Shown here: piece by piece, positions 17,410-22,968 of the stretch
How positions within the stretch are numbered: position 1 is the first letter of the stretch
Layout of the letters: each line of letters opens with the position of its first letter
Assembly (NCBI GenBank): GCA_905233915.1
Contig: CAJOFM010000003.1
Coordinates: forward strand, 1 to 64,000
Reading direction: 5' to 3'
Length of the DNA stretch: 64,000 nt
From: an uncultured Muribaculaceae bacterium
GTDB taxonomy: Bacteria; Bacteroidota; Bacteroidia; Bacteroidales; Muribaculaceae
Translations under genes and position numbers: made by a program
Notes under the pieces: generated by a model
Database searches by the model: none
Told to the model about the DNA's origin: nothing
What the model saw: the letters and a program-made list of their open reading frames with translations, nothing else

Positions 17410-17685
17410 TTATTTCTCGCCGTAGTGGGAATGCATGGCGAGGATATGGACAATGATGCGGTTATCGTCAACAGAGTAGATGAGGCGATGCTCGCGGTTG
17501 ATGCGTCGTGACCACATGCCAGTTAGGGAATGGCGCAAAGCCTCGGGCTTGCCGATGCCCGTGTAGGGATGTTGGGCAATATCGGCAAGCAAGAGCTTAA
17601 TGCGGTTCACAATTTTCAAATTACCGCTCTTGACGAAAGCATTATAATGGTCGATCGCCGTTTGGGTAAGTACTATTTGGTACAT
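17410..17685 (-). CDS. yoeB: Txe/YoeB family toxin
   Basis: This 91-residue protein is the mRNA interferase of a type II toxin-antitoxin pair. It shows GKPEALRHSLTGMWSRRINREHRLIYSV and the C-terminal HSHYGEK, carrying the Glu, Arg and His positions used by YoeB to cut mRNA on the ribosome. Its start overlaps the antitoxin gene by 13 bases, the usual arrangement. Confidence 0.94.
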   Translation of the reverse strand: MYQIVLTQTAIDHYNAFVKSGNLKIVNRIKLLLADIAQHPYTGIGKPEALRHSLTGMWSRRINREHRLIYSVDDNRIIVHILAMHSHYGEK

Positions 17686-17963
17686 GTGACGCGGTCAAGT
17701 AATTGGTCAATGGTTTCTCCATCTTGCTGGGCGGTCACACGGCCATACGCAATGTCATCCTCGGCAGCCACAAGCGACCGTAGCAGTTGTGGCCGCTGGA
17801 GCACGAACTCCGTTTCCATGATGGCATTGTAATCCTCGAGGCTGATGACCACAACGCTCTCGGCGCCAGGACGGCTCACAATCAGCGGTTCATTGTCCGC
17901 TGCGACGGCGTCAAGATAACTTTTCAGGTTATTCCTCAAGTCAGTGTAATTGGTCGTTCTCAT
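17673..17963 (-). CDS. yefM: YefM/Phd family antitoxin
   Basis: The 96-residue protein starts RTTNYTDLRNNLKSYLDAVAAD and contains PLIVSRPGAESVVVISLEDYNAIMET, the Phd/YefM DNA-binding and dimer core. The acidic C-terminus would wrap around the toxin. The start at 17963 is chosen because the longer frame reads through the promoter and operator. It should repress its own promoter with YoeB as co-repressor. Confidence 0.94.
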   Translation of the reverse strand: MRTTNYTDLRNNLKSYLDAVAADNEPLIVSRPGAESVVVISLEDYNAIMETEFVLQRPQLLRSLVAAEDDIAYGRVTAQQDGETIDQLLDRVTCTK

Positions 17964-18033: not shown

Positions 18034-19380
18034 TTATGCTTTGCTTTGGAGTTTGAAGCGTTGCATGATGATGACAGCGACGAGGAAGGCAGCGAAGTCG
18101 CTGGCGGGTAGGGAAGCCCACACACCGTCAAGGCCCCATAACGAGGAGAACAGTAGCAGCGTGGGCAGCAAGAACAGCAACTGACGCGAGAGCGACATGA
18201 AGATGCTGATGCGCACCTTGCCGATGGTCTGGAAGAAGTTGGTGACTACCGCCTGGTAGCCGATAACGGGGAAGACGAGCATGTTGATGCGGATACCGCG
18301 AATCGAGATGGCGATGAGCCCTTCATCGTCGGTAAATAGGCGTGTGCATGGCTCAGGCAGCAGTTCGCCAATCACCCAGCCGACGGTCATCGCAATGACC
18401 GATGCGGTGATGGTGAGACGCAACACCTGCTTGACTCGGTCCATGTTGCGTGCACCATAATTATAGCCGGCAATGGGCTGAAAACCTTGACAGATACCCA
18501 TGATGACCATAAAGAAGATGAATCCTAATCGGTTAGCGATGCTGTAGGCGCCTACGGCGAGGTCTCCGCCATAGGTCATCAGGGCATTATTCATGAAGAT
18601 GGCCACCACGCAGCCCGTGAGCTGCATGGAAAACGGCGAGATGCCGATGCTCACGATGTCCTTGATGATATTGCGTGCGGGCTTGAGGAAACGCCACTCG
18701 AGGTGCAACAGTTCACGCTGGCGGGAGAATTGCCATAACTGCCAGCACAGGACGATGACCTGAGCCAGAATAGTCGCAATGGCTGCTCCCTTGATGCCCA
18801 TGTGCAGGGGCCAGATAAAGATGGGGTCGAGGATGGTGTTAAGCACCACCGTGACGATGGTGGCAATCATCGCCGCCCGGGGCTTGCTGGCCGACCGCAA
18901 TGCAGCATTCAGGCCGAGATATAGATGGGTGATGACGTTGCCCACCAGCAGGATGAACATGTACTCGTGGGCATGGGGCAGCGTCTGGTCGCTGGCGCCG
19001 AAGAACCGCAGGATGGGATCAAGGAAGATGATGGACACGATACCCACCAGCAGTCCGGTGATGATGTTCAAGGCAACCATGTTGCCCAGCACGTTGTTTG
19101 CCTTATCATACTGGCGTTGACCCAGACGCAGCGACATCAGGGTGGAGCCACCGACACCCACCGCGGCGCCAAAAGCCGCGCCGATGTTCATTAACGGGAA
19201 GGAGATGCCCAATGCAGCCAAAGCCATCGGACCCACGCCGTGGCCGATGAAGATGCTGTCCACCATGTTGTAGAGCGACGACGCCGTCATCGCAATCACA
19301 CCAGGCAATGCATATTGCCACAACAGCCTGCCCACAGGCTGTGTGCCAAGTGCCAATGTCGCTTCCTTGTTGTCTCTCAT
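18034..19380 (-). CDS. MATE family efflux transporter
   Basis: A 448-residue integral membrane protein with about twelve hydrophobic segments in two similar halves. Family stretches are PVGRLLWQYALPGVIAMTASSLYNMVDSIFIGHGVG at the N-terminus and FQPIAGYNYGARNMDRVKQVLRL in the second half. It would export drugs or organic cations against Na+ or H+; the substrate cannot be inferred. It lies 51 bases after the ATPase-TOPRIM gene, with a perfect palindrome in between. Confidence 0.92.
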   Translation of the reverse strand: MRDNKEATLALGTQPVGRLLWQYALPGVIAMTASSLYNMVDSIFIGHGVGPMALAALGISFPLMNIGAAFGAAVGVGGSTLMSLRLGQRQYDKANNVLGNMVALNIITGLLVGIVSIIFLDPILRFFGASDQTLPHAHEYMFILLVGNVITHLYLGLNAALRSASKPRAAMIATIVTVVLNTILDPIFIWPLHMGIKGAAIATILAQVIVLCWQLWQFSRQRELLHLEWRFLKPARNIIKDIVSIGISPFSMQLTGCVVAIFMNNALMTYGGDLAVGAYSIANRLGFIFFMVIMGICQGFQPIAGYNYGARNMDRVKQVLRLTITASVIAMTVGWVIGELLPEPCTRLFTDDEGLIAISIRGIRINMLVFPVIGYQAVVTNFFQTIGKVRISIFMSLSRQLLFLLPTLLLFSSLWGLDGVWASLPASDFAAFLVAVIIMQRFKLQSKA

Positions 19381-19431: not shown

Positions 19432-20997
19432 TTATTCCTCTAGGCCAAAACACTCCTTGATGGCCTTGCGGATGGCAGCGGCATTGTCGCTGTTGCCCTT
19501 CAGGATATTAAGCACGCCGCGGATGTAATCGTCCTTGCTCTTGAACCCGCACAAGGTGGCCACGTTGCTCTCGTTGAGCATGAGCTTCTGGTTATAGACC
19601 TTGAGGATGCTGGCATAGTCGCTATTGTCCTCATAGAAATGGAACTCCCGGCACAACTGGTCGTACAGGCCTCGTGGGTTGATTTCGCTCACCAGCTCCA
19701 CCATGTGGTTCTCCAGCGCATTGATGCTGGTGAATTTCATGTCGATGCGCATCTCCACCTCGCGTTTCACGCGGTGGCGCACATGCATGAGCGCCTGCTG
19801 CTTGAGCTCGTGGGTGAACATGATGATGACGCGTTTTTTCACTTTGGGGAAGACAATATCGGGGTTGCGGCGCTTGTGGCGTGCAACGGCGCGGATAACG
19901 CCCTCTAGCATGAGGATGTTCTCCACTTCGGCCACATTGGGAACGAGGATATTCTTCTTGCGCAGGTATTCCACTTCCTGATCGCTGCGGCGATCTCGGT
20001 CCACAATGCCGCGGCTCTCGAGCTGGTGGAAACTCTGCAGGTCGCCAAATGTGCGCACCGTCTCGATGACCTTGTTGCAGCTGCCCAGCGGCTTGACGGT
20101 GTATTCGGGGAAAATGAGCGGGTAGAGGCGTGAGTCGATGCTGTGCTTGTCATCGCCCTCGATGAACAAAACCGGCTTGCGGCTGCCCAGCAGGTCGAGT
20201 AGGGCAGTGTCCAATTCACGGCTCGAGGTCATCACCTCGTAGTCCCAGGCTACAGCTTCGGGGTCAAACTCCTTGACCCACACGCACTGGTTGTCGATGC
20301 GTGAACTGGCAAAATCCACGTCATGGGTGTTGTAGATGAAGGTGCAGTCGGGGCGCATCTGTTCCAGCACGTTCCACAGGGTGCGCATGATGCTGCTGTG
20401 GATAAATGTCTCTGGGTCATCAACCAGAATGGCGGCATCGGGCATGGCGTAGAGTACAGCACCGATGTAATAGAGCACCGACTTCTCACCGTCGCTCAGG
20501 CCCATCAGCGGATATTTGTCCTCATAACCCTCGGTCGAGAACATCAGCTTGCCGTTTTCGCGCAGCACCTTGTTTTTGGGGAACACTTCCTGCCATTTCT
20601 TGACGGTGATGTCGAGTTTGGTTTTGGGGAACTCCATCTGCTCATCCATGAGCTTGTGGGCCTTGAAGTTCATCAGCTCGCGGAACTCTTCATTGAGCAT
20701 GATGAAGAACAACTTGTCAAACTCGGTCTCCGCCTTGTTCTGTACCAGCGGATTGGCTGCGTTCATGCGGTTGAACAGGTCATCGATGGAACCGGGCAGG
20801 ACTTCGGCGCTGGGCGCAGTGGGGAAGAGCGCCTTCAATGCCGAGATGCGGTAGGCTTTGTCGCCCAGTTCGTCAACTAATGCCGAGCAGAAACGGCTCT
20901 TACCGGCGCCGTTGGTTCCTATGATGGTAATCTGTTTGGACTCGATCAGCACTTCTGGCTGATGCCCGTCCATTCGTTTTGGTAGTCTGATGTCCAT
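19432..20997 (-). CDS. ABC-type ATPase fused to a TOPRIM (DUF4435) domain
   Basis: Residues 1-250 form an SMC/ABC-like ATPase: Walker A GTNGAGKS (27-34), signature LSDGE (167-171), Walker B ILVDDPE (190-196) and H-loop NTHD (223-226). From about 270 a TOPRIM-like DUF4435 domain follows: VLFIEGDD (Glu280), IVDRDRR (Asp333, Asp335) and NVAEVENIL (Glu357/Glu359). This architecture is seen in OLD nucleases and in PARIS anti-phage systems (AriA ATPase, AriB DUF4435), including single-chain fusions. A defence role is inference; at 521 residues it is shorter than I would expect from simply joining AriA and AriB. Confidence 0.8.
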   Translation of the reverse strand: MDIRLPKRMDGHQPEVLIESKQITIIGTNGAGKSRFCSALVDELGDKAYRISALKALFPTAPSAEVLPGSIDDLFNRMNAANPLVQNKAETEFDKLFFIMLNEEFRELMNFKAHKLMDEQMEFPKTKLDITVKKWQEVFPKNKVLRENGKLMFSTEGYEDKYPLMGLSDGEKSVLYYIGAVLYAMPDAAILVDDPETFIHSSIMRTLWNVLEQMRPDCTFIYNTHDVDFASSRIDNQCVWVKEFDPEAVAWDYEVMTSSRELDTALLDLLGSRKPVLFIEGDDKHSIDSRLYPLIFPEYTVKPLGSCNKVIETVRTFGDLQSFHQLESRGIVDRDRRSDQEVEYLRKKNILVPNVAEVENILMLEGVIRAVARHKRRNPDIVFPKVKKRVIIMFTHELKQQALMHVRHRVKREVEMRIDMKFTSINALENHMVELVSEINPRGLYDQLCREFHFYEDNSDYASILKVYNQKLMLNESNVATLCGFKSKDDYIRGVLNILKGNSDNAAAIRKAIKECFGLEE

Positions 20998-21033: not shown

Positions 21034-21542
21034 AACGCTAATTACGCTGATTTTCACTGATTAATCATTCAAGCAATAGTCATAATCATAACCTGCGTTG
21101 TTTATTCATAAAGCAGATTATAGCTGTTTACCACTCTTGCTGTTTCAAGGCTTTTCTTTGCAAAATTACCTATGATACCAAGTTGAAATCCAGTTGCTTT
21201 TAAATAATTTAATACCTGGCATTTATGAATATCAATTATGTCAGAAACTGTTTTTAACTCAATGATAATCTTGTCATAGCAGATAAAATCAGCGATATAA
21301 TCTTTATTGAGAGATATGTCCTTATATTTAATTTTCAGATGAGCTTCTCGCTTGTATGGGATTCCTGCTTTCTTGAATTCATATTCCAAAGCTTCTTGAT
21401 AGACTTGCTCCAAGAATCCAGGTCCAAGTTCTGTATGAACATCCATCATACAACCTTTTATTTTATAAGACTCATTAGCGTAAATCAAATAAGCCATATC
21501 ACCAGTGAATTAAAAATCCGTATAATCTGCGTAATCAGCGTT
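21034..21542. repeat. Imperfect inverted repeats framing the GxxExxY gene
   Basis: Left end 21034-21066 reads AACGCTAATTACGCTGATT and onward; the right end 21508-21542, reverse-complemented, reads AACGCTGATTACGCAGATT and onward. They agree at roughly three quarters of about 33 positions. They enclose the GxxExxY gene and little else. Confidence 0.7.
21102..21497 (-). CDS. GxxExxY family protein
   Basis: The defining motif is visible in GPGFLEQVYQEAL (GxxExxY), preceded by MMDVHTEL. A PD-(D/E)xK nuclease-like core follows (YIADFICYDKIIIELKTV: Asp, Glu, Lys). The 131-residue length is usual for the family, whose function is not established. The gene is clearly more AT-rich than its neighbours and is framed by inverted repeats, which suggests it moved in as a cassette. 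Confidence 0.88.
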   Translation of the reverse strand: MAYLIYANESYKIKGCMMDVHTELGPGFLEQVYQEALEYEFKKAGIPYKREAHLKIKYKDISLNKDYIADFICYDKIIIELKTVSDIIDIHKCQVLNYLKATGFQLGIIGNFAKKSLETARVVNSYNLLYE

Positions 21543-21726: not shown

Positions 21727-22968
21727 ATGATGGACTATGTGAACGCTTTTGTGTCGATGCTTAACGGCATGTCGCCCTATCTGTTGCTGGGCTTTTTCAT
21801 CGCTGGCCTGTTGCATGCCTTTGTGCCGTCGGCAATCTATAGCCGCTACCTGGCGGGAACAGGACTGCGATCGGTGCTAACTGCTGCCGCATTTGGCATA
21901 CCGTTGCCCCTGTGCTCGTGTGGTGTGTTGCCCACGGCGGTTGCCCTGCGTCGCAGCGGTGCCTCTCGTGCGGCATCCACATCTTTCCTCATCGCCACGC
22001 CTCAAACGGGAGTGGACAGCATTGCTGCCACCTATTCGATGATGGGCTTGCCCTTTGCCATTCTGCGGCCTGTCGCTGCATTGGTGACATCGCTGTTGGG
22101 TGGACTGGCTGTGGGCCATTGGGAACGCAAGGGCGCCCTTGGTGACGTGAAAAACGATGCTAACTACGAGTTCAGCGAGTTGCCTAAAGGCTTGTGGAAT
22201 AAGGTGGTGGAGACGTTCAAATACGGTTTCTTCGACATGATGCAGAGCATAGGCCGCTGGCTGCTGCTGGGATTGGTGATTGCGACGCTGATAACGGTGC
22301 TGCTGCCCGATGACTTCTTCTCGACTTATGCCCGTTGGCCGCTGCTGAATATGTTCATCATCGTGCTGGTGGCTGTCCCGATGTATGTGTGCGCCACGGG
22401 ATCTATCCCCATCGCTGCCGCGCTCATGCTCAAGGGTATGTCGCCTGGTTGTGCACTGGTGCTGCTCATGGCTGGACCTGCCGCCAATGTGGCCTCGATG
22501 TTTGTTGTGAACAATGCCTTTGGGCGCAAGGCAACCATCGTCTATCTGCTGTCGATTATCGGCGGTGCCATCGGTTTTGGTGTGCTGGTTGACTATTGGC
22601 CCGGCTTGCGGGAACTGTTTGTCAACGCCTTGCCCACCCATGTCATGCACCATCACATGCACGTGTCGTGGTTCAACACCTTGTGCAGCATTGCCCTGAT
22701 TGGCATGATTGTTGTCGCCTTAGGTGCGAAGTACTGGAAATCCTATCAAATCAAACGTAATAAAACTGTAGCTATGAAAGAATTCAAAGTTAAAGGCATG
22801 ATGTGTGCCCATTGCAAAGCCAATGTCGAAAAAGGCCTTGCAGCCCTCCCTGGTGTGGAAAAAGTGACTGTTGATTTGGCTAAGGGCACGGCCCTGGTTG
22901 AAGGCTCCATCCCCGACCAGCTCATCATCGACTGCATCGAGGACCTAGGTTACCAATACGAGCCCTAA
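21727..22968 (+). CDS. SO_0444-family metal efflux permease with C-terminal HMA domain
   Basis: Residues 1-340 form a permease with about eight to ten membrane segments; the twin blocks AFGIPLPLCSCGVLPTAVALRR and ATPQTGVDSIAATYSMMG, with a Cys-Ser-Cys motif, mark the SO_0444 Cu/Zn efflux group (related to ArsP). From Met350 a heavy-metal-associated domain follows with the metal-binding GMMCAHC (Cys360, Cys363). The fused domain would hand over the metal ion. It is monocistronic and converges with menG. Confidence 0.9.
   Translation: MMDYVNAFVSMLNGMSPYLLLGFFIAGLLHAFVPSAIYSRYLAGTGLRSVLTAAAFGIPLPLCSCGVLPTAVALRRSGASRAASTSFLIATPQTGVDSIAATYSMMGLPFAILRPVAALVTSLLGGLAVGHWERKGALGDVKNDANYEFSELPKGLWNKVVETFKYGFFDMMQSIGRWLLLGLVIATLITVLLPDDFFSTYARWPLLNMFIIVLVAVPMYVCATGSIPIAAALMLKGMSPGCALVLLMAGPAANVASMFVVNNAFGRKATIVYLLSIIGGAIGFGVLVDYWPGLRELFVNALPTHVMHHHMHVSWFNTLCSIALIGMIVVALGAKYWKSYQIKRNKTVAMKEFKVKGMMCAHCKANVEKGLAALPGVEKVTVDLAKGTALVEGSIPDQLIIDCIEDLGYQYEP

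Follow-up and report, generated by a model that had tools for sequence, protein, structure and literature searches.

The DNA analysed here, a stretch of 64,000 nucleotides from an uncultured Muribaculaceae bacterium, is referred to below as the window. The gene under study lies on its minus strand, starts with ATG and encodes a protein of 521 amino acids. No Rfam families and no tRNA were found within the window. The gene, its motifs and its neighbours are as follows.

17410..17954, minus strand: YefM/YoeB toxin-antitoxin pair, variable passenger (PhdYeFM 1e-16, YoeB 3e-24)
18034..19380, minus strand: MATE efflux gene, downstream neighbour, kept in most loci of the window's own sub-clade only
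19432..20997, minus strand: fused AriAB-like gene, 521 aa, ATPase and DUF4435/Toprim (ORF calling, profiles, distribution)
19435..19911, minus strand: C-terminal helical part of the AriB-like half, residues 363-521 (AF2 pLDDT 93, pTM 0.88)
19912..20184, minus strand: Toprim domain, residues 272-362, with E280, D333, D335 and VAEVEN at 355-360 (alignment; Foldseek best match AriB 8UX9_A)
20278..20952, minus strand: ABC/AAA_21 ATPase half, residues 16-240, with a helical insert at 57-159 (Pfam AAA_21; AF2 model; Foldseek to OLD, PtuA and GajA)
20416..20418, minus strand: Walker-B catalytic position, Asp194 in place of Glu (codon read; alignment)
20485..20499, minus strand: ABC signature LSDGE, residues 167-171 (alignment)
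20896..20919, minus strand: Walker A GTNGAGKS, residues 27-34 (alignment)
21102..21497, minus strand: GxxExxY (PDDEXK_3) gene, variable passenger (E 2e-41)
21727..22968, plus strand: ArsP/HMA permease, upstream neighbour, present in 35/35 genome-contig loci of the window's own sub-clade

The reading frame is open and full-length in most of about 100 relatives in the genus, and its product matches two Pfam families above their cut-offs, AAA_21 at residues 100-226 (E 1e-11) and DUF4435 at residues 273-479 (E 8e-24). The original prediction of an ATPase and a TOPRIM domain in a single chain is therefore borne out, and the TOPRIM acidic residues (E280, D333 and D335) are all present. Its further claim that all ABC-type ATPase motifs are there holds for Walker A, the signature, Walker B (ILVDDPE, residues 190-196) and the H-loop (H225), but fails at the catalytic Walker-B Glu, which is replaced by Asp194. 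The Walker A consensus GxNGxGK[ST] is conserved across the aligned homologues, with one truncated PARIS-like sequence as the sole exception.

Among the PADLOC profiles, that of fused AriAB (PDLC02982) gave the best match, with 322 bits over residues 92-514 (E 2e-96). The PADLOC AriB profile matched residues 273-473 (75 bits, E 2.5e-21), the PADLOC AriA profile matched as well, and the A1 profile matches AriA (8UX9_B) at 2e-4. Gabija and Septu profiles were much weaker than fused AriAB. Membership of OLD class 1 or Gabija GajA was considered and rejected, since the GajA profile reached only 2e-5 and the neighbouring genes scanned are those for MATE, GxxExxY, ArsP and the toxin-antitoxin pair, without GajB.

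For the full chain, AlphaFold2 was given the window protein together with its relatives; the model has a mean pLDDT of 87 and a pTM of 0.53, so the placement of the domains is uncertain. Foldseek with the whole chain returned OLD, PtuA, GajA and SMC/cohesin heads as PDB neighbours, which marks out the general neighbourhood. Modelled alone, the C-terminal half reached a pLDDT of 92.7 and a pTM of 0.88, and its best PDB match is AriB of the PARIS complex (8UX9_A; probability 0.96, E 0.024); only a designed Rossmann protein comes close to it in probability, and AriB is the sole convincing match. The Foldseek E-value is modest because the sequence of the C-terminal half is distant from that of E. 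coli AriB: no direct sequence match to solved AriB was obtained at E <= 10, and the likeness was found by fold only. The profile scores together with AriB as the best fold match make the kinship to PARIS secure, the protein reading as a fused AriAB by sequence and its C-terminal half being AriB-like by predicted fold. The kinship to PARIS or OLD proposed earlier thus stands, and the sequence suggests descent of the protein from the PARIS/class-4-OLD group.

Whole-genome searches found the gene in 96/101 genomes of the genus (58-94% identity), nearly always in one copy. Among 197 genomes of the family that are at least 90% complete, 178 gave a match, as did 24 of the 26 genera; nearly all are full-length single copies, and one of the 178 (G126) is only a distant PARIS-like match. 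RpoB, taken as a yardstick, was detected in only 74/80 of such assemblies, so that a presence of 90% is not far below the highest that could be expected, whereas gajA occurs in 4/197 of the same family genomes. The suggestion of a compact defence system is not supported by this distribution, which is that of a core gene present in nearly all relatives, the very outcome that had been named beforehand as refuting it. It is the gene that is conserved near-universally, and the locus itself differs between sub-clades. About 10% of the family genomes are without the gene and a few copies are broken, hence the gene is not essential. In family genomes without it, remnants were sought beside menA and none was found within 1.5 kb, while menA is kept; these absences look like clean losses, or like losses that followed an earlier move of the gene away from this position.

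At the level of the order, all sampled genomes of the sister families f18, f24, f54, f80 and f99 carry the gene (44-51% identity), and those of most other families gave no match to it. Families f13, f20 and f87 contain PARIS-like proteins that are roughly 30% identical. Family f95 is probably that of Parabacteroides, since the tree places the P. distasonis protein as sister to that of the f95 member G356; in f95 the gene is present in 39/67 genomes in a pattern structured by genus, with two genera lacking it. Two f95 genomes, G356 (L130 and L091) and G510, have, in addition to the resident copy, a PARIS-like fusion that is roughly 30-35% identical, and therefore PARIS and the resident gene are not mutually exclusive.

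The AriAB tree is broadly congruent with that of RpoB, and descent is vertical. Taken as one group, the six families are a clade by RpoB as well as by AriAB; each is also monophyletic in either tree except f54, which the AriAB tree splits with weak support. Patristic distances in the two trees are correlated at 0.63 over 35 taxa, a value reached in 0/2000 permutations, and at 0.56 within the family alone. Fusions from plasmids, from phage and from most of IMG/VR are distant outgroups in the tree.

Some sequences from these mobile sets deserve separate mention. The IMG/VR 'viral' contigs L139 and L140 bear identical copies, at 48% identity, that are placed inside the resident family clade, and the contigs are probably host sequence within the viral set. 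In Oenococcus phage phi9805 (L138:2269-4149), a fused AriAB-like gene annotated as an ABC transporter directly follows the lysin and holin genes. On a Paraburkholderia sabiae plasmid (L137:351-4626), a separate AAA ATPase and DUF4435 gene pair immediately precedes, on its upstream side, the gene for a fused DUF4435 protein; these may be two neighbouring forms of PARIS.

The genomic context is that of a chromosomal gene and not of a defence island; very few of 136 neighbouring ORFs match defence profiles. Both the toxin-antitoxin pair and the GxxExxY gene, which had been pointed out as company for a defence gene, are real, but they are not its partners. Within the window's own sub-clade, only 3/35 loci have GxxExxY between this gene and ArsP, and YefM/YoeB is present in 5/13 loci with both flanking genes in view. 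A functional partnership with either was rejected, as both vary at the same locus among close relatives. Elsewhere, menA is the neighbour that recurs, found on the same strand and within two genes in 17/45 loci spanning five families; the two genes overlap by 4 bp in four loci and are separated by a few bases in others. This linkage is missing in many lineages, including that of the window, and being so patchy it may have no functional meaning.

All of the 111 aligned homologues have the Toprim DxD, and E280 is missing from just one of them, a genus sequence with E280V. The catalytic Glu of Walker B is kept by f24, f3, f95 and P. distasonis as well as by 15/15 PARIS-like fusions. It is absent from 90/90 sequences of the genus, the family, one same-clade IMG/VR contig and families f18, f54, f80 and f99, where Asp, Ser, Asn, Ala or Thr replaces it, although these 90 sequences represent few events on the tree and not 90 independent ones. 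Family f24 retains the Glu and yet lies inside the clade. Both Walker-B acids (residues 193-194) drift along the lineage, the pair being DE in the PARIS-like fusions, f24 and f3, EE in f95, ED in f99, f54, f80 and most of f18, and DD, DS or DN in the family. The signature Gly is changed to Ser in f3 and part of f95. A simple rule by which copies that keep the Glu are patchy and copies without it are core was discarded as too simple, because f95 keeps the Glu and yet has the gene commonly, by genus.

The Toprim domain is the best conserved segment of the protein within the family, with 75.5% identity as compared to 54.6% for the ATPase core, and the order is reversed in the PARIS-like fusions (41.8% and 48.1%, respectively). 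In the gene's own clade dN/dS is 0.065, and housekeeping neighbours range from 0.046 to 0.109. The low dN/dS and the conservation of the Toprim domain indicate that selection is strong and centred on the nuclease.

Compared with what is expected of a fused AriAB PARIS system, an AriA-type ATPase domain, a DUF4435/AriB Toprim in cis and the Toprim acids are recognised in the sequence and in the predicted fold, but a complete ATPase active site and a patchy or mobile distribution are not found. On account of these two missing features we class the protein as a variant, outside PARIS membership. Scores of PDLC02982 range from 310 to 414 bits for the resident gene and from 351 to 582 for the PARIS-like fusions tested, which lie above the resident copies at 310-322 bits.

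That the gene is resident and non-mobile we hold with high confidence. Our preferred reading, to which we give a probability of roughly 0.55, is that of a near-core, vertically inherited fused AriAB-like protein acting as a resident, nucleotide-gated Toprim RNase derived from a PARIS-like ancestor. An ancestor shared by several Bacteroidales families would have acquired the gene, which would then have become resident on the chromosome. The ATPase half is suggested to bind ATP, to hydrolyse it poorly or not at all, and to serve in dimerisation and as a gate that follows the nucleotide state. The Toprim half may be a two-metal endoribonuclease like AriB, which cuts tRNA-Lys, tRNA-Thr and tRNA-Asn and whose activity the AriA hexamer restrains until the binding of a phage protein (PMC12409363). 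The substrate of the present protein would be a conserved cellular RNA, most likely tRNA, and its role would be in regulation or RNA quality rather than that of a mobile suicide system. The changes in Walker B do not prove a loss of hydrolysis, since alanine at either Walker-B acid of Cran1 left the ATPase activity unchanged (PMC12796447). The odds of a gated-RNase mechanism with a non-defence role appear to us about even. Equally balanced is the proposal that a PARIS-type lineage was recruited as a core enzyme of gut Bacteroidales, namely a Toprim endonuclease for tRNA or other RNA whose gate depends on the binding of ATP and not on its hydrolysis, and which would serve physiology and not phage defence and would be counted as PARIS in defensome surveys.

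The main rival to this reading is that of an immune protein, likewise resident, which senses nucleotides as GajA does; we regard it as tentative but worth serious attention. Here a fixed PARIS-like guard would respond to phage infection by cleaving tRNA and halting growth, its trigger being nucleotide depletion or a conserved phage activity. Kinship to AriAB, the intact Toprim site and the dispensability of the gene in about 10% of genomes are all in keeping with such a guard, and a lost ATP hydrolysis is compatible with it too, GajA being a defence protein that works by nucleotide sensing (PMC12796447). Against it, neither gajA nor a defence island in the same genomes shows such a distribution, such vertical descent or such an operon context. 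An ordinary mobile PARIS system with both activities would explain the fused AriAB profile match of 322 bits and the presence of all domains, but is contradicted for this lineage by a near-core, single-copy gene of vertical descent; with the Walker-B Glu replaced and the toxin-antitoxin and GxxExxY neighbours not conserved, we consider it very improbable.

Loss of function altogether, leaving a decaying relic of an old PARIS, could be read from the substituted ATPase site and the clean absences in some genomes; a dN/dS of 0.065 and a Toprim site that is unchanging across six families make this a slightly poorer prospect still. Least credible is a housekeeping repair ATPase of the RecF/SMC/Rad50 type, to which the weak SMC_N match and the resemblance to cohesin heads might point, because SMC_N scores 27.1 bits, below its Pfam cut-off of 40, and the DUF4435/AriB half is specific, as is its fold.

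The residency of the gene bears on surveys of PARIS. By the account of Rousset et al., fused-AriAB profiles were derived from 20 proteins picked by Pfam architecture, not from tested proteins, and the systems described there as tested were two-gene ones (PMC9122126). A resident cellular gene that trips such profiles may be counted as a defence system in gut surveys, and could account for PARIS counts without any arms race; it probably makes the counts for gut Bacteroidales too high. A literature search for Muribaculaceae with PADLOC gave no match. What is new here is the loss of the Walker-B Glu in the family and four sister families while the Toprim catalytic residues are essentially fixed; if our reading is true, the ATPase site drifts and the nuclease is held fixed. 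The targets of resident AriB-like nucleases are a directly testable question in culturable gut bacteria.

Among known systems, the fused AriAB form of PARIS (PDLC02982; class 4 OLD) shares the single AAA_21 and DUF4435 chain, the predicted AriB-like fold and the Toprim residues with the protein described here, which differs in being near-core and vertically inherited, in having its Walker-B Glu replaced and in a Toprim domain that is more constrained than the ATPase core. The two-gene PARIS of E. coli B185 (AriA and AriB) provides the best fold match of the C-terminal half; E. coli PARIS is described as borne on P4 satellites (PMC9122126), whereas the present protein is one shorter chain encoded by a chromosomal, near-core gene. 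Gabija GajA (class 2 OLD) is likewise an ATPase-Toprim chain, which has probably lost hydrolysis, is reported to keep nucleotide binding and senses the nucleotide level (PMC12796447); in contrast, the present protein has a DUF4435-type Toprim and no GajB partner, and gajA is rare in the same genomes. Cran1 of Sulfolobales (class 5 OLD) is a core, apparently essential member of the OLD-type defence superfamily with a non-defence role (PMC12796447). It belongs to a different clade and keeps its active sites, whereas the Bacteroidales protein has another residue in place of the catalytic Glu and some genomes do without its gene. If our reading is correct, archaeal Cran1 would have its bacterial counterpart in the Bacteroidales protein, as an ATPase-nuclease of OLD/PARIS type serving as a core gene.
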